Part shown: positions 12,662 to 64,000 of the stretch, in pieces
Numbering within the stretch: the first letter of the stretch is position 1
How the letters are laid out: the number at the start of each line of letters is the position of its first letter
DNA from: Branchipolynoe longqiensis
Lineage: Eukaryota > Annelida > Polychaeta > Phyllodocida > Polynoidae
Length of the DNA: 64,000 bases
NCBI GenBank assembly: GCA_030323885.1
Contig: CM059186.1
Coordinates: 169,183,230-169,247,229 of the forward strand
Direction: 5' to 3'
Made by a program: the position numbers and the translations under genes
Notes under the pieces: model-generated
What the model was told of the DNA's origin: nothing
Seen by the model: only the letters and a program-made list of their open reading frames with translations
The model's database searches: none

Positions 12662-14518
12662 ATGTTTAGAGCTGGCAATATTGCTTACAATGTTAGTGAG
12701 TGGGAACAGTTAACTACTGACCGGACGGTTCTGGAGATAGTTACAGGGCTTAGAATTCCCTTTATAGAAATCCCAGTGCAGACAAAAGTTCCCTTTCCTT
12801 ACCGTTTTGCTTTAGATGAACAAGTAGCGTTAGATCGAGAAGTTATGAAATTTATAGCTAAGGGTATTGTTATGACAGCACAGCATACTGACGGAGAATA
12901 TATTTCGAATATATTCTCCAGACCAAAGCCAAATGGCGAAGTCAGGATAATTCTGGACTTAACCATACTTAATGAGTTGGTGGTTTATAAACATTTTAAA
13001 ATGTTTTCGTTAGAGACAGCACGCGATCTGGTTATGCAGGATGCTTGGTTGGCAAGTGTGGACCTAAAAGATGCCTATTACACTGTCCCAATTTGTGAGG
13101 GACACCGACAATTTCTTCGTTTCTTTTGGCGGAATCAATTGTTCCAATTTACTTGTTTACCCAATGGTCTAGCTTGTGCGCCAAGGTTTTTCACAAAATT
13201 GTTGAAACCCGTCTTTGCTGAGATGGCAAAGAAAGGACACGTTATGTTCCCTTACATTGATGATTCATTTATAGTAGCACGCACAGCAATTGACTGCCAA
13301 TTGGCAATTAATGATTTGTGTAATTCTCTAACCGATTTGGGGTTTTATGTCCACAATATTAAGTCGATTCTCACTCCTACCAAAAATCTAAAATTTCTGG
13401 GGTTTTTCATTAACACGAAAGATATGACTATCACCCTGACGTCGGACAAGGTTGATAAGTTTAAAACCACAGCGGGTAATTTGTTGAAAATAAAAAGACC
13501 TAAGATACGACAAGTAGCAGTTTTAGTCGGGCTGATGGTGGCTTATGCACCAGCTGTTTTGTATGGCAAAGCGCATATTAAGTCCCTTGAAATAGATAAA
13601 AATGTCGCTCTGGCTAAATCGGTTGGCAATTTCGAAAGGCTCATGACCATTTCCAAGGAAGGGCACGAGAATATTCTTTGGTGGTTGCGACATATCACTC
13701 ACGCCACGAATCCCATACGTATGGATGAACCTAACACTTTAGTAACTACAGACGCCTCCCTAGAGGGTTGGGGTGCGCATAGGGATAACGAAGCGACAGG
13801 GGGCCGTTGGTTAGAAGATGAGATAGATGACCACATTAATGTTTTAGAGCTACGGGCTGTTTATCTGGGTTTAACAAGTTTAGTTAAGGTCCCTAGACTT
13901 AATGTCCGAGTGTTAACTGATAACACTACTGCAATGGCCTATATAAGGAATATGGGGGGTTCAAGGTCCTCAGCTTGCAACACTGTTGCCAAGCTCATTT
14001 GGAACTGGGCTGAGAAACAAAACGTGTGGATCACGGTTGCACACATTCCAGGCAGCAAAAATACATTAGCGGACAAAAAGAGCAGACATTTTCACGATCA
14101 TTTGGAATGGTCCCTCAGTGCAAACATTTTTCAAACTATTTGTCTTAAATGGGGAAAGCCAGAGATAGATCTTTTTGCTTCTCGGAGGAACAAAAAACTT
14201 GATAAATATGTGTCTTGGCATCCTGAGCCACAAGCTTGGCGAGTGGATGCTTTCTCTATGATCTGGAATGATGCTTTTTACTATATTTTTCCCCCATTCA
14301 GCCTAATCAGCAGAGTAGCCAGAAAGATCAGGCTAGACCAGACACATGCAGTGTTGGTAGTGCCGGACTGGAACACTCAGCCATGGCGGGCGGCAGTGGA
14401 ATGGGAAATGAAGGATTGTTTAAAATTCCCAAGAGGCCCAGTCAATTTAGAACATCAAGGCAGAGTGACAAGCCAAGGGGATGTGGCCACAACACCGTTA
14501 TTGGCATTCCTTTTCTAA
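12662..14518 (+). CDS. DIRS reverse transcriptase-RNase H-methyltransferase (618 aa)
   Basis: The polyprotein copies the element RNA into DNA. RT spans about residues 60-260, with SNIFSRPKPNGEVR, VDLKDAYYTVPI, FTCLPNGLACAPRFF and the catalytic FPYIDDSF at about 198-205. RNase H spans about 355-480, with TTDASLEGWGAH, NVLELRAVY, LTDNTTAMAYIRN and HIPGSKNTLADKKSR. A C-terminal region with KPEIDLFASRRN and a FPPF motif followed by VVPDWNTQPW (about 535-580) matches the Dam-like methyltransferase domain known from DIRS elements. The ORF is uninterrupted and starts 26 bp after the gag stop. Its 3' end overlaps the recombinase ORF by 136 bp in another frame, typical of the group. I chose the first ATG; an earlier non-ATG or reinitiation start is possible. 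Confidence 0.93.
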   Translation: MFRAGNIAYNVSEWEQLTTDRTVLEIVTGLRIPFIEIPVQTKVPFPYRFALDEQVALDREVMKFIAKGIVMTAQHTDGEYISNIFSRPKPNGEVRIILDLTILNELVVYKHFKMFSLETARDLVMQDAWLASVDLKDAYYTVPICEGHRQFLRFFWRNQLFQFTCLPNGLACAPRFFTKLLKPVFAEMAKKGHVMFPYIDDSFIVARTAIDCQLAINDLCNSLTDLGFYVHNIKSILTPTKNLKFLGFFINTKDMTITLTSDKVDKFKTTAGNLLKIKRPKIRQVAVLVGLMVAYAPAVLYGKAHIKSLEIDKNVALAKSVGNFERLMTISKEGHENILWWLRHITHATNPIRMDEPNTLVTTDASLEGWGAHRDNEATGGRWLEDEIDDHINVLELRAVYLGLTSLVKVPRLNVRVLTDNTTAMAYIRNMGGSRSSACNTVAKLIWNWAEKQNVWITVAHIPGSKNTLADKKSRHFHDHLEWSLSANIFQTICLKWGKPEIDLFASRRNKKLDKYVSWHPEPQAWRVDAFSMIWNDAFYYIFPPFSLISRVARKIRLDQTHAVLVVPDWNTQPWRAAVEWEMKDCLKFPRGPVNLEHQGRVTSQGDVATTPLLAFLF

Positions 14519-15477
14519 GTTCTTATTTAAAACAGTTTGGGTTGGACAAAATTACCCAGGCTAGGCTGATTTCGGACGCATGGAGGCCTGGTACCGTTAA
14601 GCTGTACTCTTGTTATTTGAAGAAATGGGGACTTTACTGTTTATTGCATAAAGTTAAGCCGATGCAACCATCCATCGCCCAGGTAGGACGGTTTTTACGT
14701 ATGATGGAGGATGATGGACTGGGTTATGGTGCTATTAATGCGGCTCGTTGCGCACTTTCAGTCATTCTGCCTAGAATTGACGGACAAACTATAGGTAAGC
14801 ACGAGGTTATTCGTTGGATAGTAAGGTCGATATATGTGAGGAATCCGCCGAAACCAAAATATAATCGGTTCTGGGATGTTTCGACAGTATTCAAGCTTTT
14901 TCGGGATTGGCCGGAAAACAACTTACTTTCTATCCAACATTTAGGTTATAAGTTAGCAGTGCTATTACTTTTAGTAACTGGACATAGAGGACAGACAATT
15001 GTGGCTCTTTCGTTACAAGGGCTTGATATCGATAAAAGAGAGGCCACCTTCGATTTGGATAAGTTGCTAAAATCGAATAGGACAGGAGACCCCCTTTCCT
15101 CCATTCATTTAACTAGCTTCCCGCATAATAGGAAATTATGTGTTGTGTCAGCCATTAGGGCCTACATTTCCAAGACTAAGGGAATACGGAATTCTAATCA
15201 GCTTTTGGTGAGTTTTATTAGGCCACATAAAGCGATTTCAAGAGACACACTCGCCAGATGGACGATTATTGTGCTCAAGTTAGCGGGCATTGACACGGGT
15301 CGCTATGCTTCGCATTCTACAAGAGGTGCGATGGCCTCGAAGGCAAGGACGCTGGGAATTTCAGTAAGGAGAATCCTGGCTCATGCCGGCTGGAAGACGG
15401 CCAAGTCGTTTGCTAAACATTACAACAAACGGCTAGAAAAGACAAGTGGGGTGGCAACCCGACTACTCAACGACTAA
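14383..15477 (+). CDS. DIRS tyrosine recombinase (364 aa)
   Basis: This is the integrating enzyme of DIRS elements, replacing a DDE integrase: it recombines a circular cDNA into the target without duplicating it. A phage-integrase-like N-terminal DNA-binding part (AWRPGTVKLYSCYLKKWGLYC, about residues 67-87) precedes the catalytic half. The tetrad is visible: Arg in LVTGHRGQTIVAL, His and Arg in ASHSTRGAMASKA, a His/Trp box in LAHAGWKTAKSF, and the nucleophile Tyr in AKHYNKRLEK. The frame is intact to TAA at 15475-15477. The first 45 or so residues overlap the RT-MT ORF and are Arg/Gly rich, so the true start could lie further in. Confidence 0.93.
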   Translation: MAGGSGMGNEGLFKIPKRPSQFRTSRQSDKPRGCGHNTVIGIPFLSSYLKQFGLDKITQARLISDAWRPGTVKLYSCYLKKWGLYCLLHKVKPMQPSIAQVGRFLRMMEDDGLGYGAINAARCALSVILPRIDGQTIGKHEVIRWIVRSIYVRNPPKPKYNRFWDVSTVFKLFRDWPENNLLSIQHLGYKLAVLLLLVTGHRGQTIVALSLQGLDIDKREATFDLDKLLKSNRTGDPLSSIHLTSFPHNRKLCVVSAIRAYISKTKGIRNSNQLLVSFIRPHKAISRDTLARWTIIVLKLAGIDTGRYASHSTRGAMASKARTLGISVRRILAHAGWKTAKSFAKHYNKRLEKTSGVATRLLND

Positions 15478-15572: not shown

Positions 15573-15704
15573 TCCCTCGACCTCGAGCAGCCAGAGGCTT
15601 AGTACCGAGGTAAAATAGTATAGTTATACGAATCTTACCTGGTACAGATGATGGATAACTCTTGTTTTCCCGAGGTATAAGCCTCGGGTGGTCGTGGACT
15701 AGGG
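15573..15704. promoter_or_regulatory. DIRS internal complementary region (ICR)
   Basis: 15573-15616 is the reverse complement of the left tip (10346-10389). 15617-15704 is the reverse complement of the right tip (about 15838-15925). The two are fused at 15616/15617 (gaggtaaaat/agtatag). In DIRS-1 such a region templates circle closure, and the same role is inferred here. Confidence 0.9.
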
Positions 15705-15809
15705 CCCACCCACCACACCCTGCCACGACCACTACGTTCGCTTGTGCCAAACGAAAACATCAGATTTCCATCATAAAGCTCAATTTTATCCTGATTAATT
15801 AGGTGAAGA

Positions 15810-15924
15810 TTGTTGTACCCGGATGTTGCTTCCTTCTCCCTAGCCCATGACCACCCGAGGCTTATACCTCGGGAAAACAAGAGTTATCCATCATCTGTAC
15901 CAGGTAAGATTCGTATAACTATAC

Positions 15925-15925
<1 letters not shown>
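15810..15925 (+). repeat. DIRS right inverted terminal repeat
   Basis: It starts tgttgtacccggatgttgcttcc, the inverse of the left ITR inner part, and ends in the tip TTCGTATAACTATACT that is mirrored in the ICR. TA repeats of the target resume at 15926. Confidence 0.9.
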
Positions 15926-15959
<34 letters not shown>

Positions 15960-16944: not shown

Positions 16945-17278
16945 GATTTGATTGGTTGGTTGTTGGAGTTTTCCGTCCTGGCAACATCTAAGGTCATATC
17001 AGGACGAGTACCAACTTGTGACAGTGCACACTCATGGTGACTTTATAGTGCTGCCACACTGGGAAATCAATGGCTGGCACTATGACCCAATATCCCACTC
17101 AGTCAAATTATCCTGACACTGAGCTAACCAGTCCTTTCCCTATCCTCTTAATGCCGAGCGCCAGGCTAGGAAGTGACAAGTATAAGTCATTGGTTTGACT
17201 CGACCGGGAACCGAACTCCCGATCTCCCGCATGCAAGGCTCGCGCTCTACCGATATTCGGCCACCGCGCTGGGTGCCT
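16945..17278 (-). mobile_element. SINE-A, near full length, minus strand
   Basis: It reads ggttggttgttggagttttc...cctggcaacatctaaggtca from the tail end. The tRNA-like head is on the right (cgaactcccgatctcccgca, ccgatattcggccaccgcgc), with a B-box-like element in inverse orientation near 17210. Confidence 0.8.
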
Positions 17279-19084: not shown

Positions 19085-19537
19085 TAAGGGGCTGTCACAT
19101 TAGGGTTTTTTGCGGAAGCGTATGGCGGCGTAAGCGCGTTACGTCATATACGTCGGCATACGCCGTATACGCTACTCATACGCTACGCATACGCTACTCA
19201 TACGCTACTCATACGCCGCCAGATGCCGCCAGATGCCGGCGTATGTGAAGCGTATGAGGCATACGCCGCCATACGCTTTCATAAATCCGTCCGTCCAAAT
19301 TTTGTTGTGCATGCTCAAAAAAACCCGACCTATGAGGGCGTATGGCCCATACTGTCAAAAAATGTCACAGCACGCTCCCATACGCTCCTCATACGCTCCT
19401 CGTACGCTCCTCGTAGGTTCCAGATACGCTCAAAACCACCCGAAAGGTCACCAAATGTCATCATAGGCCGGCACGCGCAGGACCTACGTAGGTTTTCAAT
19501 ACGCTCCCGCCATACGCCGTAATGTGACAGGGCCTTT
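19085..19537. mobile_element. Word-filled foldback element A (word CATACGC)
   Basis: The ends aaggggctgtcacatta and taatgtgacagggcctt are inverted repeats. The left half has many copies of catacgctac/ggcgtatg, and the right half has the same word with variants (catacgctcc, cgtacgctcc). A central core tttgttgtgcatgctcaaaa lies at about 19300-19320. A TTA sits at each edge. No ORF is meaningful. Confidence 0.8.
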
Positions 19538-19925
19538 ACTCGCTGAGGTGAGCAGTCACAGGGTCTGTGAGCTTTAATTTTACTTTTGGCCTTCACCGAT
19601 GAACCTTATAGGACACTGACTATATTCATAGATTAGTGTATTCATTTATACATCAGGTGTATTGATCCTGCAGGCTTATCAGCAGTGAGCAGCAATGACA
19701 TTCGTCACCTTGGCTTATGAATGGACCAAGTCACTTTGGTGCCGGGTGGTCACTCAAGGGAGGTGTTGGGCAATAACAACCCAATGAAATAGGGTGGCTA
19801 TCCGGGCCTCAATGTGCAACCCTCTTTTAGTGCTAAATGTTCGGTACTTTGGAATGGCATAATCTATCCATTGCTGAACGGCAAACTGAATATTGAGGCC
19901 AGGATGGCCGCTCTATTTACACCCT

Positions 19926-20750
19926 AAAGGCCCTGTCACACTACGACGTTTCTCCCCAGCGCGCTTCGACGCGTGCCGACGGGTTGGGTTTTTGTTCAAC
20001 ACGTCGGTACACGTCCGGTTCGTTACCGCCGCGTTGCCGGCGCGTTACCGGCGCGTTACCGGCGCGTCGGTACATAGCAACGTGTGAATGGACACGTCGG
20101 CGCGCGTCGGGGCGCGTCGAGGTTTTGTGCATGCACAAAACTTTGGACGCGCGGCGACGCGCGCCAACGGGTTGTAGGGCGCGTTACGAACGCGTTAGCA
20201 ACACGTCGACACGCGTTGGCGGCGCGCCGGCGGAACGCTGGCAGGACGTTGATCAATGTTGGTTAACGTTGGCTCTTTTTCCCCAAAATTGGGAGCGTTC
20301 CGTCGGCGCGTCGGGAACGTCCCATCGACGTGTTGTGGGCATGCCATTGGCGTTGCTCCAGCGTTTCTCGGCGCGTTGGACGTGTTGCCGGCGCGCCTGG
20401 ATGCGTTGGCCGCGCGCTGTGGACGCGCTGCGGGCGCGTCCTAACGTGTTGCTGGCGGGTATGTACGGGTTGACGCAATACTAACACGATACCAACGCGC
20501 TCCCTCCACGCTGTAAACGCGCCGATAGCGCGCCACCAGGGCGCCGACAACGCGCCAATAACACGCTACTAACGCGCCAATAACGCGCCAATAACGCGCC
20601 ATAACGCGCCTCCAACACGCCACTAACACGCTGCGCCGCGTCAAACTTTCTCCCAAAGCGCCGAAAAGTTCGACGTTTCTCGACGGGTTGCAAATATTTT
20701 GCGCGTTGCCGGCGCGCCGGCAGAAGCGTCGTAATGTGACAGGGCCTTTA
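19926..20750. mobile_element. Word-filled foldback element B (word GGCGCGTT)
   Basis: The ends taaaggccctgtcacactac and gtaatgtgacagggccttta match inversely. The interior consists almost entirely of GGCGCGTT, GACGCG and ACGCGCC words. The left half is mostly in one orientation and the right half in the other (about 20500-20640 is a run of aacgcgccaat). The core gttttgtgcatgcacaaaac is at 20123-20142. Not coding. Confidence 0.85.
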
Positions 20751-22850: not shown

Positions 22851-23088
22851 AAGGCCCAGTCACACCTTACCGGACTTGGGAACCGGACATGAACCGGACA
22901 CTGTCCGGTGATATACAGCGATGTCCGGTTCTCGTCCGGTGCTTGCCCGGTGGTGTCCGGTACAAGTTTTGAACATGCACAAAACTTCTACCGGACACCG
23001 CCGGACTGGGCCGTTGGTGTCCGGTGCCAATCCGTTGCGTGTCCGGCTTGCTTCCGGAATTGCCCGGTGGTGATATACAATGTATGTG
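22851..23088. mobile_element. Word-filled foldback element C, right end lost (word ACCGGACA)
   Basis: The left end aaggcccagtcacacc is like elements A, B and D. The interior is filled with CCGGACA/TGTCCGGT words in both orientations. The core aagttttgaacatgcacaaa is at about 22963-22982. The expected right terminus is absent: after 23088 the sequence runs into an unrelated repeat (about 23100-23200) also seen at 33315-33385. Confidence 0.75.
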
Positions 23089-23189: not shown

Positions 23190-23935
23190 ATGCTGGACAT
23201 CCCCTCTCCCCATCCCCTCTTCTCTCCCCTCCCCTCTCCCCCTCCCTCTCCCCCTCCCTCTCCCCTCTCCCCCTCCCCTCTCCCTTCTCCCCTCCCCTCC
23301 TCTCTCCCCCTCCCGTCTCCCCCTCCCTTCTCCCCTCTCCCTCCTCCCCTCTCCTCTCCCCTCCCTCCCCTCTCCCCTTCCCTCTCCCGTCTCCCCCTCA
23401 CCCTCCCTCCCCCCCTCCCCTATGGCTGCCCCTCCCCTCTCCCCCTCCTCTCTCTTCCCCCTCCTCTCCCCCTCCTCTCCCCCTCCTCTCTCCCCCTCCC
23501 GTCTCCACCTCCTCTCTCCACCTCCTGTCTCCTCCCTTCCCTCTCCACCTCCTCTCTCCACCTCCTGTCTCCTCCCTTCTCTCTCCACCTCCTCTCTCCA
23601 CCTCCTCTGTCCACCTCCTGTCTGCTCCCTTCTCTTCCTCCCCTCCCTCTGCCCCTCCCTCTGCCCCTCCCCTCCTCCCCCCTACCTCTCCCCCTACCTC
23701 TCCACCTACCTCTCCCCCTACCTCTCCCGCTACCTCTCCTCCCCCGCTACCTCCCTCCCCCCCTACCTCTCCCCCCTACCTCTCCTCCTACCTCTCCCAC
23801 CCCCTACCTCTAACCCCTACCTCTCCTCCTCCGCTCTCCCTCCCTCCCTCCCCCCCTCCCCTCTCCCTCCCTCCTCCCCCTCCCCTCTCACTCCCTCCTC
23901 CCCTACTTCCCCCCTCCCTCTCCTTCCCCCTGCCT
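23190..23935. repeat. Polypyrimidine tract of about 745 bp
   Basis: It is almost pure C/T on this strand (cccctctcc, cctcctctctccacc and ctacctctccccc units), with a few A and G. It is an unusually long mirror-type polypyrimidine/polypurine tract. Apparent proline/serine-rich reading frames here are compositional. Confidence 0.95.
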
Positions 23936-44438: not shown

Positions 44439-44767
44439 AAGCCCCTGTCACACGTCACCGGATTGAGCAACGGACAGAATTGTCTAGTATGGGCGTCATA
44501 AGTATCAAAATGTATTAAAATGTGTCAAAATGTTGCGATATCCGGTCAAAGGCCGCTGGACGAACGGACATGAAACGGATATGAACGGATAGCCAACGGA
44601 CGGTAAGCAGACTCAAACCAGACAAGAAACCTAGACATCAATCTGGCGGCATCCGTTCCAAGTTTTGTGCATGTTCAAAACTTGTACGGACACAAACCGG
44701 ACTATCAACAGACTTTGTTCGGTTTCTTTCCGTTTCCTCCAATTCGGTGATGTGTGACAGGGGCCTT
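44439..44767. mobile_element. Word-filled foldback element D (word ACGGACA)
   Basis: The ends aagcccctgtcacacgtcacc and ggtgatgtgtgacaggggcctt are inverse. The interior has ACGGACA, ACGGAT and CCGGAC words, and the core aagttttgtgcatgttcaaaa is at 44660-44680. Non-coding. Confidence 0.85.
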
Positions 44768-45655: not shown

Positions 45656-45676
45656 CACGAAGAAATGACCGATATA

Positions 45677-46151
45677 ATACCCCAGTCACACGAGGTCTGC
45701 GTTCGCTAACGATCGATTCGCGACGTCAAAACATCCTCCTTGTGCCCTCCTTACGCCCTGATTGAGTGCTGTCGCCGCGAGGACGCCAACCTCCTGGCGT
45801 CCATTTCGGGAATTTTGGACGCAAGCAGGTTGCTGCTGCTGCACGTGCAACCTTACGCCCTGTTCTGGCGGCGCCATTCAAAATGGTTGGCACCCTGGCG
45901 CCGCCCTGGTGCCGCCCTGGCACTGCCCTGGGTTGGTACTAACACATGCGATGCTGCAGTCACCATGTGGTCGGCCCCGACCTGGTGCCGACCTGGTGCC
46001 GACCTGGCGCCGACATGGCGCCGACATGGCGCCGACATTGGCGACTACAATGTATTTGAATCAGTGTATCGAATGGAACGCTGGGTGGTTGGCGTCCTTT
46101 TGGGCGTAGGGAGGTTGGCGGCGAACACTGCCTCTCGTGTGACTGGGGTAT
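45677..46151. mobile_element. Word-filled foldback element E (word GGCGCCGACCTGG)
   Basis: The ends ataccccagtcacacgagg and cctctcgtgtgactggggtat are perfect inverse repeats of about 18 bp. The interior has runs of tggcgccgacatggcgccga, ctggtgccgccctgg and ggacgcca words. The GTGCATG core of the other elements is replaced by gctgctgcacgtgcaac (about 45833). Non-coding. Confidence 0.8.
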
Positions 46152-51100: not shown

Positions 51101-54100
51101 GACAGTTAACCAGCTGACATAGCATAAGATAATAACTTAATTATGTACCTTTCTATTCTAAGATAATAACTTAATTATGTACCAGCTCACAGACACAACG
51201 CATGCATCGTGACAGGTATATTTCTATTCTAAGATAGCGGTATTTTAAGTTTTACTAGGCACACATCATGATCAGTAAGCTGTTTGTTGTTGGTTTACTA
51301 CATCATTTTCATTAAGCTGTTTGTTGTTCTATGTCCTAGCAACATCCTTGCCCTATTCTAATAATTCCTTCCGTTTGTTTGAATAATAGATGCTTAAGTA
51401 ATACTAGGCACACATCATTATCATTAAGCTGTTTGTTGTAGGACATCCTTGCCCTATTCTAATAATGCCTTCCGCTTGTTTGAATAATAGATGTATAGTA
51501 TTATATGCCTGCTTACCAATGCTTAAGTAATATTAGGCCCACATTATCATTAAGCTGTTTGTTGTTTTATGTCCTAGCAACATCCTTGCCCTATTCTAAT
51601 AATGCCTGCCACTTGTTTGAATAATAGATGTATAGTATTATATGCCTGCTTACCAATGCTTAATTAATACTAGGCACACATCATTATCATTAAGCTGTTT
51701 GTTGTTTTATGTCCTAGCACCATCCTTGCCCTATTCTAATAATGCCTGCCACTTGTTTGAATAATAGATGTATAGTATTATATGGCTGCTTACCAATGCT
51801 TAATTAATACTAGGCACACATCATTATCATTAAGCTGTTTGTTGTTTTATGTCCTAGCACCAATGCTATGTATGCAGGCTCACACACCAAAAGACCTCAG
51901 GACTATGTCACTTCTAAATTGATATACTCTGCTATGTTTACAAAATTCATGTTTTTATGTGATTTTAGATAAACAATGCAGTGTGCCGGAAATTCAACAT
52001 CACTAGATCAGTAACAAGCGCCTACCACCCTCAGACGAATGGATTGGACGAACGGACAAACCAGACGCTGAAGACACGACTAAGCAAACTGATGAATGAA
52101 AATCAGACCGACTGGGACACGCATCTGGAGGAAGTGGCCTACTCAATCCGGACAGCGCCACAGAGCACCACCAAGGTAATTTAATCCTCTCTTATTTTAT
52201 AGATACGATACAAAAATATATTCAATCTTTACCAATGAACACAGTACATTATTATTATGTTTAGTTTCCAGCCATCAAACTGTTTCCACCAAACATACTT
52301 AAAACTAGAATATGGCCATACTGTAGTAAATGATTTCTATCCTTGTATTTTTTAGTTCACACCATTCTTTCTGATGTTTGGCCGTCACCCACGGCCACTT
52401 CTGGAGATGGATGCAGTTGATGACACTCCTCCCCCATCTGAACCAATCGTGTTGGAGGAGATGGTCTCCCATCGTGAGGCGGCCATGGATGAGGTTAGTA
52501 TTAAGGTGCTGGCCAACATGGAGGTAGCTCAGAGTAAGATGAAGGCTGTATATGCGAAGCGATGCAGCAAGGGTGTCAAGACCTTCAAATTTTCCCCGGG
52601 GGATCTCGTCATGAGGAGAAACATGCGGAATGTCGGTCGGAAAGGCGGAAAGATGGATGCAAAGTGGACAGGCCCTTATAGGTGTGTATAGGATTATGCA
52701 TATATAATATTAATTATTTACATGTCTTTCATTGCCATTATTTTGCATCTATAATATTCATTGCAGGGTGCTGAGCATTGACAGCTGCCAGCGGGTGGAA
52801 CTGCAAGAAATAAAGAAGGGAAATGCGACACTGCAGAGGAAGGTGCCGTACTGCCAATTGAAGCCCTACCAAAGCAGTCATCTCTACTCGGTCCCTGGCT
52901 CTGCAGCCACAGACGTTGAGGTGGCTGGCAGCATATCCGATTTTGCAGCCACAGACACTGCGGTCCGCAACGTGTTGGGTGACGTCTGCTTCGCCACAAA
53001 CGTTGACGTGGCCGAGGAGATCATAAGCGAGTCGATGTCGAGTGAGTCTATTAGTCACCAATTTCTGTCACAGAAATGTTTTGTTTCAGGTCACTTTACT
53101 TTTGTGTCAGGTCACTTAATTTGGTTTCAAATGTCACTATATTGAATTATATAAATAGAACATGTCTTTTAACTTGCAATGTACCTGTGGGAGTGTCCAT
53201 CTCTGCAGCTATTAAACTGTTATGATTATATGAACTATTATTCATTTATTCAGTCTTGTTGCAGTTTTCATCGAAAATACCACGCAATTTAATTGCTGTT
53301 ATGAATATGTGATATGGGTCTTTCAGATGCTGTTGGGAGTTCATTCCAAGTTCCTTTGTCAAATGGAGCTCTGCTTAATTAATATGTATCAGGGTTGGGT
53401 AAGATTATTTGTATTAGGGTCAGGATGACACTCCTCCCAAGAAGAATCTTGTTATATCTATGTATTTTAACCGTTGCAGGCACACACGTTGAGAAAGACG
53501 TTGAGGTGGCTGGCAGCATATCCGACTTTGCAGCCACAGACACTCCAGTCCGCAACGTGTTGGGTGACGTCTGCTTCGCCACAGACGTTGACGTGGCCGA
53601 GGAGATCATAAGCGAGTCGATGTCGAGTGAGTCTATTAGTCACCAATTTCTGTCACAGAAATGTTTTGTTTCAGGTCACTTTACTTTTGTGTCAGGTCAC
53701 TTAATTTGGTTTCAAATGTCACTATATTGAATTATATAAATAGAACATGTCTTTTAACTTGCAATGTACCTGTGGGAGTGTCCATCTCTGCAGCTATTAA
53801 ACTGTTATGAATATATGAACTATTTTTCATTTATTCAGTCTTGTTGCAGTTTTCATCGAAAATACCACACAATTTAATTACTGTTATGAATATGTGATAT
53901 GGGTCTTTCAGATGCTGTTGGGAGTTCATTCCAAGTTCCTTTGTCAAATGGAGCTCTGCTTAATTAATATGTATCAGGGTTGGGTAAGATTATTCGATGA
54001 CACTCCTCCCAAGTAGAATCTTGTTATATCTATGTATTTTAACCGTTGCAGGCACACACGTTGAGATGGACGTTGAGAAGGAGGTTGAGGTGGTTGAGGT

Positions 54101-54875
54101 GGTGTGTGCTCCAGAGCGTTACACTGGAAACGGTTGGGTGCAACCACCCACACTCCTGACGGCACCAGTCGCTGCCGCCCGGGATATGGTGGATAATGCT
54201 AAGTGGCTGGATGATGGCATTATCGACCATGTCCAGGGGTTGTTGCGGTTGCAGTTCCCATGTATATCGGGGCTGTATGCGACAGCCAGCATGGCACAGC
54301 TAGGCTGTCCGAACAACAACAACAATGAAGCCATGGTACAGATTCTGCATCATGGTGGCAATCATTGGCTCACCATCACCAATATCGGGTGCGACAAGGC
54401 TACCATGAAGATTTATGATTCTCTGTCCTCAGTAACCACCCTACTGTCTTTCCAGGTGGCCTCATTCTTAATGTCGAAGGCATCGGAAATAAAGATTGAG
54501 TGGCCAGCTGTGCAGAGACAGTCGGGTGTTTCTGATTGTGGTTTGTTTGCAATTGCAAATGCTGTGGCTCTGTGCCAGGGACATGATCCCACACAAATTA
54601 AATTAGACCAGGACAAAATGCGTGAGCATTTGGTTACATGTTTTGTAAATGGCTCCATGTCGTCGTTTCCAGGTGGAAGTAAACGGTCACCTAAGATATC
54701 AGTTAGATGTGACCTAGTCGCAATCTACTGTTATTGTAGACGCCCCTACAATTGCCGGACCCAAGAAATGGTGCAATGCAAGAAGTGCAAAGAATGGTTC
54801 CACGAGAAGTGTGCCAGTGTCTGTGTTGAAAGTTTTAGTGGTAAAGATAGTGTGTTCGTATGTAAACCCTGTTAA
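48116..54875 (+). CDS. Ginger1 transposase gene, nine exons, 813 codons, one TAG
   Basis: Exons are 48116-48278, 49919-50224, 50709-50847, 51002-51056, 51969-52175, 52356-52681, 52767-53041, 53480-53626 and 54052-54875. All introns are GT...AG and all eight junctions keep phase, giving one chain from ATG 48116 to TAA 54873-54875. The enzyme is a cut-and-paste integrase-type transposase. In order it has an N-terminal helical part, an HHCC zinc finger, a DDE core, a GPY/F module, a repeat linker encoded by duplicated exons, a Ulp1-like cysteine protease and a PHD finger. The start is the ATG giving MTLQLTPQMIRLQ; an upstream in-frame ATG exists at 48071 but lies in direct repeats. TAG at 51033-51035 (exon 4) interrupts the chain inside the motif SD[stop]GREF, where Gln is usual. 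Confidence 0.9.
48590..49420. repeat. 242-bp tandem repeat in Ginger1 intron 1
   Basis: Three nearly identical units begin at actctgtctcacacaaactg (48593, 48835, 49078), and a fourth, partial unit lies at about 49323-49410. The last part of exon 1 with its donor is also echoed at 49467-49500 (gggatgcagaaagtaagtgc), so the duplication history reaches across the splice site. A related block with an inverted pair (gggccctttgttctatagta / actatagaacaaagggc) lies at 49619-49810. Confidence 0.92.
49919..52681 (+). CDS. Ginger1 integrase domains (exons 2-6)
   Basis: Exon 2 encodes the zinc-binding H...H...C-x2-C unit (ALYHSSALGGHSGVNTTLAK, then SCNRCQQHE) and the first catalytic Asp in VGMDLIG. Exon 3 starts PLPTTEDGHKYVLTFTDYYT, the strand with TDYYTKF. 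Exon 4 encodes WGAPKRLLSD-stop-GREFVAE, the second catalytic Asp. Exon 5 has SAYHPQTNGLDERTNQTLK, with the catalytic Glu. Exon 6 has KFTPFFLMFGRHPRPLLEM, then FSPGDLVMRRN and KWTGPYR, the GPY/F hallmark. This is the full Gypsy-type integrase set. In a host-gene reading it would resemble GIN1, but the TIRs and CCGG duplication make it a transposon. Apart from the TAG, no catalytic residue is missing. Confidence 0.92.
51284..51862. repeat. Tandem repeat of about 145 bp in Ginger1 intron 4
   Basis: Four units of cattatcattaagctgtttg, ttttatgtcctagcaacatc, ccttgccctattctaataat and ttgtttgaataatagatgta. The phrase gtcctagcaacatccttgccc echoes SINE-A words in inverse order, so the array may have started from a SINE-A piece. 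Confidence 0.85.
52767..53626 (+). CDS. Ginger1 linker exons 7 and 8, tandemly duplicated
   Basis: Exon 7 ends and exon 8 consists of nearly the same coding block (VEVAGSISDFAATDT, then VRNVLGDVCFAT and DVDVAEEIISESMS). The following intron sequences are also near-identical: 53041-53400 versus 53627-53990. A segment of about 585 bp containing an exon and an intron was duplicated in place. Because the block is flanked by phase-1 introns, the reading frame is kept and the linker gains 49 residues. The extension is acidic and low in complexity, with no known domain. Exon 9 starts with the same THVE words, so the duplication unit probably began as exon 9 material. Confidence 0.85.
54052..54875 (+). 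CDS. Ginger1 exon 9: Ulp1-like protease and PHD finger
   Basis: After an acidic linker comes KWLDDGIIDHVQGLLRLQFP, the start of a Ulp1/SENP-type C48 fold. The catalytic set is visible: His in GGNHWLTITN, Asp in KIYDSLSS, Gln in VQRQSGVSDC and Cys in SDCGLFAIAN. Then, at residues about 240-275 of the exon, IYCYCRRPYNCRTQEMVQC-KKCKEWFHEKC...FVCKPC gives the Cys4-His-Cys3 pattern of a PHD finger. Ulp1 or OTU proteases at this position are described for Ginger1. Their role in transposition is unknown, and the PHD may target chromatin (inference). The stop codon TAA is intact. Confidence 0.92.
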
Positions 54876-56959: not shown

Positions 56960-57350
56960 CGGTACGGTCCCAGACAGCACACAGTCGTCGGCCCGACGGC
57001 GGCCCGACGCCGGCGCCGGTGGAAAACGCCGTCGGGCCGACGTTGTTTTGTCCAACCTCCCGCCGCCGCGGGCGACGGCGGCTGTCGCCGTTGGGCCGAC
57101 GGCAGCATCGCCGTCGCCCCGACGCCGTCGGGGCGATGGCGGCTGCTGCCGTCGGCCCAACGGCGACAAAAGCCGTCGGGCCGACGTTGTTTTGTCCAAC
57201 CATTCACCGTCGACTCGACGGCGGCTGCCGCCGTCGGGGCGACGGCGACAAACGCCGTCGGGCCGACGTTATTTTGTCCAACCATCCACCGTCGACTCGA
57301 CGGCGGCTGCCGCCGTCGAGTCGACGGCGACAAACGCCGTCGGGCCTACA

Positions 57351-57479
57351 AGCCGAGAAGACACTGTCACTGTAAAAATATTAGTTTTATTCAAAATTAA
57401 TAGAAATCGAGATCCCATACCATATAAATTTAATATAGTCTGTACGTATTGACACTATAGTGACAGTGTCTTCTCGGAA
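57351..57479. mobile_element. Small foldback inside element F
   Basis: The arms ccgagaagacactgtcact and agtgacagtgtcttctcgg are perfect inverse repeats. The 85-bp centre contains ttattcaaaattaatagaaa and ccatataaatttaatatagt, the module shared with 45025-45655 and 56457-56959. Confidence 0.85.
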
Positions 57480-57519
57480 AAAAACAAGATGGCGGTCCTT
57501 CGTCAAAATTCCGTTCAGG

Positions 57520-57940
57520 GTAATTCAAATCGTATTAACACGAATAATTCCATTAATACTTCGTAATAAATTACAAAACTTTTACAAAATAATCTAAACA
57601 TATTAATAAACAAACCTGGTAAATGATTCCTTAAAATTCCTGGGATTTCTGGAGTTACTGGTAGAAAAAGAACACTGATCAACAATCGCACGTGTTCCGG
57701 TGGCGATTCGAAGTAAACAAACCGTATCGGATAATTCAAATCGAATTAACACGAATAATTCCATTAATAATTCGTAATAAATTACAAAACTTTTACAAAA
57801 TAATCTAAGCATATTAATAAACAAACCTGGTAAATGATTCCTTAAAATTCCTGGTATTTTTGGAGTTATTGGTAGAAAAAGAACACTGATCAGCAATCGC
57901 ACGTGGTCCGCGGGCGACTCGAGCCGGAAAGCAAATCTAA
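57520..57940. repeat. 216-bp tandem duplication inside element F
   Basis: aattcaaatcgtattaacac...agcaatcgcacgtg(t/g)tccg occurs twice in a row (57523 and 57737) with few differences, ending near 57725 and 57925. AT-rich, in sharp contrast to the GC-rich words around it. Confidence 0.88.
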
Positions 57941-58595
57941 AGAACTGCGCATGCGCGGCCCACCACCGTCGGCTCGACGGTGGCTCGACGGTGGACCAGA
58001 CGTGGAAAATGAATGCAAACCTGCGGCGGCCCACCACCGTCGAGCCGACGATGGCCCGACGGTGAATCAAAAGTGGAAAGGGATTGAACCCTAACGTCGG
58101 AACACCACCGTCGGGCCGACGGTGGCCCGACGGTGGCTCACAAGTGGAAAAGGATTGAAACCTAAGGTCGGGACACCACCGTCGGGCCGACGATGGCCCG
58201 ACGGTATACCAAGTGTGGAAAATGAATGCAAACTTGCGGCGGCCCACCACCGTCGGGCCGACGGAGGCCCGACGGAGGCCCGACGGCTCAAAAGTTTAAC
58301 CCTAACGTCGGAACACCGCCGTCGGGCCGACGATGGCCCGACGGTGAATCAAAAGTGGAAAGGGATTGATTCCCAACGTCGGAACACCGCCGGCGGCCCG
58401 ACGGTGGCCCGACGGTGGCTCAGAAGTGGAAATGGATTGATTCCCAACGTCGGAACACCACCGTCGGGCCGACGGTGGCCCGACGGTGGAAAGTCGGTGC
58501 CGACGGACCGACCAATAGCCGACGTCGGGCCGACGGCTGTGTGCTGTCTGGGGTAGAGTTGACATCGCCGTGTTGTTTACTGTTGGTCGGATGCT

Positions 58596-63111: not shown

Positions 63112-63477
63112 ACGTATAGTCTCCCTCGGCCTCGAGTAGCCGAGGCGTTGTACCGAGGTAAAATAGTATAGTTAGACGAATCTTACCTTGGTACAGATGA
63201 TGGATAACTCTTGTTTTCCCGAGGTAAAAGCCTCGGATAGTCGTGGACTAGGGCCCGCCCACCACACCCTGCCACGACTATTATGTTTGCTTGTGCCAAA
63301 AAGAAAACATGAGGAATTCCAATCATTAAGCTCATTTTTATCCTGAATAATTAGGTGAAGATTGCTGTACCGGATGTTGCTTCCTTCTCCCTAGTCCACG
63401 ACTATCCAAGGCTTGTACCTCGGGAAAACAAGAGTTATCCATCATCTGTACCAAGGTAAGATTTGTCTAACTATACT
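63112..63477. promoter_or_regulatory. DIRS-2 internal complementary region and right ITR
   Basis: tccctcggcctcgagtagcc...gtaccgaggtaaaat (63120-63168) is the inverse of the left tip 47596-47643. agtatagttagacgaatctt onward is the inverse of the right tip ending at 63477. Layout identical to 15573-15925. Confidence 0.9.
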
Positions 63478-64000
63478 ATATATCAATGACTTACCAGAGG
63501 TTGTACATTCTATGGTCCAAATGTTTGCTGACGATACCAAAGTATTCCGCCGTATGGAGAAAGGTAGTGACTCACGGGACTTGCAGAAGGACCTCAACAA
63601 CATGCAGAAGTGGTCAAGTGATTGGCAGCTGAAGTTTAATGCTTCAAAATGCAAAGTGATGCCTTTAGGGGTCAAAAACAGCAAGCACATCTATGTAATG
63701 AACGATGGTGTGAATAATGTTCCGCTCTCCGAAACAATGATAGAAAAGGACTTGGGTGTCAAGGTGGACAACAAACTGACATTCAGCGACCACATCCGGG
63801 AAGCCGCCAAAAGAGGTAATGGAATACTGGCTATCATTCGAAGATTGTACACATACCTAGACGAGGATGTTGTACGCAGACTGTACACATCCCTTGCACG
63901 TCCACTTTTGGAATATGGAAATGTTGTATGGTCACCACTCTACAGGAAGGATGCTGAGTCAATTGAGAGGATCCAAAGAAGGGCAACGAAGCTTGTACAT
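63478..64000 (+). pseudogene. CR1-like LINE RT, right part
   Basis: It continues the frame left at 47595: YINDLPEVVHSMVQMFADDT with the catalytic FADD (about 63525), WSSDWQLKFNASKCKVM, the thumb-like EKDLGVKVDNKLTFSDH, and RRLYTSLARPLLEYGNVVW, open to the window edge. The typical CR1/Jockey order is preserved. The LINE is cut by the DIRS but otherwise in good shape over this part. The other DIRS and Ginger1 pieces are younger than it. Confidence 0.9.

Follow-up and report, generated by a model that had tools for sequence, protein, structure and literature searches.

The question raised by this locus was how two neighbouring elements can share their ends and their centre and yet be filled with different repeated words. 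The window (the whole stretch of DNA analysed, 64,000 nucleotides) belongs to contig C1, the assembly amounts to 1.85 Gb, and all counts given here come from this one genome. The two elements, A and B, are separated by a gap of 392 bp and were delimited as follows, the arm arrays being those detected by TRF.

19087..19535, no strand assigned: element A, CATACGC family, non-autonomous, with TTA on both flanks; copies up to 99% identical.
19167..19216, + strand: left-arm array of A, 11-bp units ATACGCTACTC.
19304..19320, no strand assigned: core of A, GTTGTGCATGCTCAAAA, an imperfect palindrome.
19372..19431, + strand: right-arm array of A, 11-bp units ACGCTCCTCAT.
19928..20747, no strand assigned: element B, GGCGCG family, flanked by TAA and TTA.
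20021..20067, + strand: left-arm array of B, 11-bp units CGTTACCGGCG.
20119..20146, no strand assigned: core of B, GAGGTTTTGTGCATGCACAAAACTTTGG.
20516..20610, + strand: right-arm array of B, 11-bp units AACGCGCCAAT.

Element A runs from AGGGGCTGTCACA to TGTGACAGGGCCT between two TTA triplets, and B from AGGCCCTGTCACA to TGTGACAGGGCCT between TAA and TTA. A 13-bp terminus is common to both, and AGG(C/G)(C/G)CTGTCACA forms a short terminal inverted repeat at both ends of each. The GTGCATGC core is present in A and in B, where the palindrome is perfect (TTTTGTGCATGCACAAAA). Arms of this type are long, self-complementary and internally repetitive. The ATACGCTACTC run in A is a fresh tandem of 4.5 units. 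In the right arm of B, rows with periods of 22 and 33 are longer and extend to 20631. Element B overlaps a single reading frame of 166 aa. CATACGC and GCGTATG were counted 10 and 4 times in A, and neither was present in B or in the remaining window. GGCGCG was counted 12 times in B, once elsewhere in the window and never in A. The first-pass annotation had claimed common termini, a common GTGCATG core and a different interior word in each element. The termini and core were seen in both elements, together with the TWA flanks, and the word difference was confirmed by the window counts.

Other elements were recorded in the same window.

22851..23065, + strand: related element with a AAGGCCCAGTCACACC terminus, the word TCCGGAC and a core at 22964; end approximate.
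44440..44765, no strand assigned: element C, terminus and core as in A and B, word ACGGAC at 10-11 bp spacing, core at 44660.
45676..46150, no strand assigned: element X, CCCCAGTCACACGAGG termini, 11-bp word TGGCGCCGACC.
56969..58553, no strand assigned: element Y, (C)CCCAGACAGCACACAG termini, 11-bp word CCGACGGTGGC in 57960-58550.

The terminus of the element at 22851 can also be written CCCAGTCACACC and its core is the same as that of A and B; no right terminus was found for it. No AAGTTTTG core was seen in element X (45676-46150). In the first part of element Y (56970-57345) lag 3 ranked top and lag 11 was weak. Since X (CCCCAGTCACACGAGG) and Y (CCCAGACAGCACACAG) also hold 11-bp words, the architecture may extend past the CTGTCACA group.

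The exact terminus AAGGCCCTGTCACA was found at 23,501 sites of the genome (11,831 + 11,670), against 242 (125 + 117) for a reversed-pattern control. The strict core palindrome AAGTTTTGNNCNNGNNCAAAACTT was found at 17,132 sites and its control at 0. The cores of A and B are variants just outside this strict pattern, which is matched by two other elements of the window. CTGTCACA followed by GTGCATG 200-230 bp further on occurred at 2370 + 2457 sites, compared with 34 + 38 for the control. Thirty-one distinct paired elements were then taken from 45 loci and the window; they are 271-1421 bp long, with nested inserts in some. The group has the traits of MITEs: short length, high copy number and terminal inverted repeats. 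One locus (L015), a tandem array of ~38-bp units holding AAGGCGCTGTCACACAC, which resembles the terminus, was left out of this set as a satellite.

Interiors were compared by pairwise alignment. Identity reached 0.99 among copies of family A (lowest value 0.71, against a longer variant), 0.68-0.77 in B, 0.83-0.90 in C and 0.89 in D; in family E it reached 0.92, with 0.61 for the lowest pair. Between families, with one representative for each of five, it was 0.44-0.55. Interiors thus align within families and not between them, so the word changes between families and not between copies. The earlier proposal that the bulk is rewritten element by element was contradicted by these alignments, and rewriting copy by copy is ruled out. 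What was found was largely a set of ordinary families with alignable interiors, distinct from one another at the level of the five representatives. The companion claim limited the common features to ends and core and overlooked one: a 10-11-bp word spacing is common to them too. A core sample (the first 20 listed of the 17,132 core sites, all on C1, and four window cores) was divided by BLAST into nine groups, a count that depends on the threshold chosen; L078 in particular may belong with L079 as a diverged relative. CpG observed/expected was 1.61 in the arms and 0.60 in the remaining window. Five loci (L040-L044) considered as long autonomous elements instead contain nested or adjoining MITEs; no transposase was noticed in them, reading frames being listed for L040 and L042 only.

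It is hardly credible that A and B are unrelated and that their short termini are alike by chance or convergence. Their interiors do fail to align (0.45 identity, with aligned columns covering 0.52 of the longer one), as unrelated elements would. However, the two have in common the 13-bp terminus, the type of core found at thousands of strict sites and at no control site, the TWA flanks and the word spacing.

TWA was present on both flanks of 25 of the 31 elements. The two triplets were identical in 14 of these and different in 11, and the differing triplets differ in the central base. A 3-bp duplication should yield identical triplets, so simple target duplication does not explain 11/25. For A-type elements, one mixed combination, TAA on the left and TTA on the right, was found 275 times in the genome.

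Word spacing was measured by autocorrelation over lags 5-20. The best lag was 11 in 22 of the 31 elements, 10 in eight and 15 in one. At 20 core loci (first listed, all on C1), using 130 bp on either side of the core, it was 10 in 10, 11 in nine and 20 in one. A best lag of 10 or 11 was thus obtained at 19/20 core loci, compared with 6/39 control pieces from the window. Mean identity at the core loci had maxima at lags 10 and 11, 20 and 22, 31-33, 42 and 52-53. The pooled period was 10.50 bp (bootstrap 10.40-10.60), with a periodicity power of 0.267 against a maximum of 0.106 among 200 mononucleotide shuffles. Six of the nine groups had a significant period of their own, always within 10.35-10.75 and reached by at most 3/100 shuffles. 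The period was not significant in the other three (L090, 91/100 shuffles; L094, 48; L078, 13). One turn of B-DNA is 10.5 bp. Distances between successive copies of the top 5-mer of each element (n=123) were 10 or 11 in 49 cases and 20-22 in 19; there were none at 7-9 or 12, three at 13 and nine overlaps at distance 2, and the rest were mostly longer. A rigid 11-bp satellite is ruled out as the whole story, lags 10 and 11 being equally strong.

The range of this regularity was examined in the array of family E. Uniform placement matched the observed phase coherence in 0/2000 trials. When a random walk was built from the 9-13-bp steps observed, it equalled or exceeded this coherence in 0.547 of 2000 trials. 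As this second null is not rejected, the data support near-constant spacing of neighbours and not long-range locking, and slippage that maintains inherited units of 10-11 bp would serve as well.

A transposase partner of family E was reached by a search in which the query was the N-terminal exon of a Harbinger transposase from the same genome. Its 5' half, at C13:12121339, consists, from 5' to 3', of TTA, the terminus TACCCCTGTCACACTACGACGTAACGAG, the core GAGGTTTTGAACCTGTTCAAAACTTTCGAC, an ACGT array, a TATA box GGAGTATATAAAG and an ORF. The E-family MITE at L042 is 97.6% identical to it over the 337 bp that separate the terminus from the 5' end of the gene. The frame is stop-free over 462 aa, and a 414-aa part of it (L107) matched DDE_Tnp_4 at 6.2e-28. 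The array holds 33 ACGT sites with a best period of 10.55; it starts at the terminus, continues beyond the core as far as the TATA box and stops there; no peak near this period was present in the ORF or in the upstream flank. Seven more places scored within 0.1 bit of the partner with the same query, at an equal 37% identity, which suggests recent copies. The sequence read for this partner contained neither its 3' end nor a MADF gene, and A and B yielded no transposase. The first-pass annotation had considered an undescribed element class. A class of unknown origin was not supported, as the arm of one family continues into a transposase of PIF/Harbinger type, and the group most likely consists of PIF/Harbinger elements and their MITEs, directly so for E and through the shared frame for A and B. 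TATA-like sequences, GAGTATATAA or CGTATATAAAC, were also noted inside B-type and CCGGAC-type elements (L043, offset ~2750; L096 and L097, reverse strand). They are perhaps relics of a promoter such as that of the E partner.

A second Harbinger is present at L060 and L063, with 98.7% identity along 4934 bp. It matched DDE_Tnp_4, MADF and BESS, the second-gene domains being MADF at 2.3e-07 (L101) and BESS at 3.6e-08 (L063). An AAGG terminus follows TTA or TAA at the one end reached. Among the shared boundaries listed for PF13359 loci, a recognisable terminus was found in this pair only, and the CCCTGTCACACTA terminus lay near 2/30 of the loci (L054 and L066). The Harbinger gene at L066, 45 bp from an E element, was set aside as a partner because it is probably a chance neighbour. 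In the subterminal 115 bp of L063, lags 35 and 28 exceeded 11 and the 11-bp periodicity was weak. Upstream of other Harbinger genes, lag 11 was weak at L103 (z 2.1, fourth in rank), no lag of 10-11 was found at L104, and a 7-bp period of CATGCGG words adjoined the TATA box at L105. As these four have no clear 10.5-bp period, helical spacing belongs to the present group and not to all Harbingers.

The reading that we prefer, with a probability of roughly 0.6, is that A and B are MITE families of the PIF/Harbinger group and that the word of each family would be the binding site of its own protein. A foldback (FB) or Galileo-type origin, in which a transposase of the MULE or P superfamily would move long inverted repeats that are internally repetitive, is very unlikely. 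FB makes target duplications of 9 bp and Galileo of 7 bp; the flanks here are TWA, and no longer duplication was noticed in the flanks examined. The one partner gene that was found encodes a PIF/Harbinger protein with DDE_Tnp_4, which disfavours such an origin for family E. The likeness that speaks for it lies in the arms, which are long, self-complementary and internally repetitive, as is described for Galileo (PMC3573991).

In the preferred reading, the group has three constants: a terminus AGG..CTGTCACA next to TWA, with close variants; a palindromic core, usually placed 70-220 bp inside the nearer end; and a word repeated about once per helical turn. The arm word is short, mostly CpG-containing and different in each family, and may be the recognition site of a Myb/MADF protein or of the N-terminal domain of the transposase. 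Spacing by one turn would align numerous protein monomers along a single face of the helix, which would help the ends to pair and might perhaps contribute to promoter control. Arrays would gain and lose whole 10-11-bp units. Units may also move between arms, so that a changed word would spread through the element, and separate transposon lineages would then fix different words.

The sharing of words between arms was assessed by 6-mer Jaccard similarity. It was 0.092 between left and right arms within elements (n=24), compared with 0.043 between groups. In 6/24 elements no right arm of another group was as similar to the left arm as its own. In three (L078, L079 and L095), at least 12 right arms of other groups were as similar. 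The prediction that one dominant word occupies both arms therefore holds as a rule, with these 3/24 as clear exceptions.

Array change was followed in families A and E. Lengths were obtained for the first 100 listed of the 275 A-type elements, with a pattern gap that confines them to 430-460. They form three clusters ~11 bp apart: 27 elements at 430-434, peaking at 434; 38 at 440-447, peaking at 445; and 35 at 449-457, peaking at 455. Lengths of 435-439, 448 and 453 were absent. A few amplified source copies could underlie these classes, which therefore count events poorly. Among nine E copies, 13 of the 17 distinct alignment gaps of at least 9 bp were 10, 11, 20, 22, 32, 33 or 44 bp long and so correspond to entire helical units (P 1.3e-4 against a uniform choice of 9-44), gap placement being dependent on the aligner. 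Arm units were compared in 12 A copies with at least three exact CATACGCT units. The right arm held only CCT, CCC and CAA types in seven, and also ACT, ACG or ACA in five (L001, L002, L010, L036 and L099). In three of these five the right-arm variant also occurs in the left arm of the same copy (ACG in L001 and L002, ACT in L036), and L002 is the clearest case, with ACG four times on the left and twice on the right. The ACT/ACG/ACA-type units in the right arms of L010 and L099 had no match in their own left arms. Copying of units between the arms of A copies is thus hinted at. The homogenising process that had been postulated (slippage, conversion or template switching) was retained in part: unit-sized changes are found, in limited form and at the level of families, and transfer between arms goes no further than this hint.

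The same observations bear on a purely mutational origin, in which minisatellite-like 10-11-bp arrays, with their spacing, were inherited from a common ancestor and homogenised by slippage, unequal exchange and hairpin template switching, the words having no binding function. We consider this rather unlikely. Indels and length classes of unit size, the occurrence of left-type units to the right of the core in certain A copies and fresh tandem runs such as that of ATACGCTACTC are all expected from it. So are the random-walk null that is not rejected and the bases between neighbouring units, whose identity of 0.51 is what duplication would leave. It accounts less well for six of nine groups with different words having significant periods all within 10.35-10.75, and for neighbour distances of 10 or 11 with none at 7-9 or 12 and three at 13. 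The mixture of 10 and 11 centred on 10.5, in place of one fixed unit, and the end of the E partner array at the TATA box also argue against it.

A further step beyond protein binding is possible but tentative, with the odds against it. Termini and palindrome would act as fixed cassettes and the arms as a platform of helically phased sites, and the letters of the site would turn over with the protein of each family while the 10.5-bp geometry is kept, the new word being swept through the element by copying of units between arms. If so, recognition sites would have been replaced wholesale within a DNA transposon superfamily, with their geometry conserved.

Several known systems resemble these elements in part. 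CACTA (En/Spm) and hAT (Ac) elements likewise carry many short motifs inside their ends, as subterminal arrays bound by proteins; their termini and transposases are different and the arrays are not known to fill the whole element. Drosophila FB repeats are 10, 20 and 31 bp long, and if these values are right they are near multiples of 10.5. PIF/Harbinger elements and their Tourist-like MITEs (mPing/Ping, Harbinger3_DR) agree with the present group in DDE_Tnp_4 (family E), TWA-type flanks, short terminal inverted repeats and high-copy MITEs. PIF/Harbinger terminal inverted repeats are ~15 bp long, and in Harbinger3_DR a subterminal motif of 9 bp is the recognition site of a Myb-like protein (PMC9710019). 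Both ORF1 and the transposase are required in this two-protein system (PMC2836001). Tens of word copies per arm, one-turn spacing, a family-specific word and a conserved central palindrome set the present group apart from these relatives as far as the source texts at hand describe them. Galileo and Drosophila Foldback also have long, internally repetitive inverted arms, and the tandem repeats of the Galileo TIRs have been proposed to expand and contract and to hold secondary transposase-binding sites; the internal tandem repeats of Galileo F measure ~210 bp, unlike the 10-11 bp found here (PMC3573991). The transposase superfamily also differs, being the P superfamily in Galileo. Helical-turn word arrays in transposon arms were not found described in the open-access literature searched, within the portions of text available.

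The elements are thus ordinary in being non-autonomous families of a known superfamily, directly for E and by the shared frame for A and B. They are unusual in their near-constant helical spacing with a changing word, in the fixed palindrome and in the array that reaches the transposase promoter. At issue is how a transposon changes the site of its own protein, when many copies must change together. One genome here offers some nine word solutions on a constant frame and so allows a direct comparison of word, spacing and protein. Should the words be binding sites, they form a natural experiment on the evolution of DNA-binding specificity and on one-turn spacing of sites. The comparison also bears on how MITE families become independent of one another's transposases.

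Three minor observations were made elsewhere in the window. A reverse transcriptase ORF is followed by a tyrosine-recombinase-like ORF at 12662-15474, an order which we take to be that of DIRS/Ngaro retroelements. An ORF at 53997-54872 matched Ulp1-type peptidase C48 and a PHD finger, the latter just below the cut-off. Inverted-repeat pairs at 15615-15927 and 63163-63479 have arms of 90-91 nt that are 97-98% complementary and are separated by 133-135 nt.
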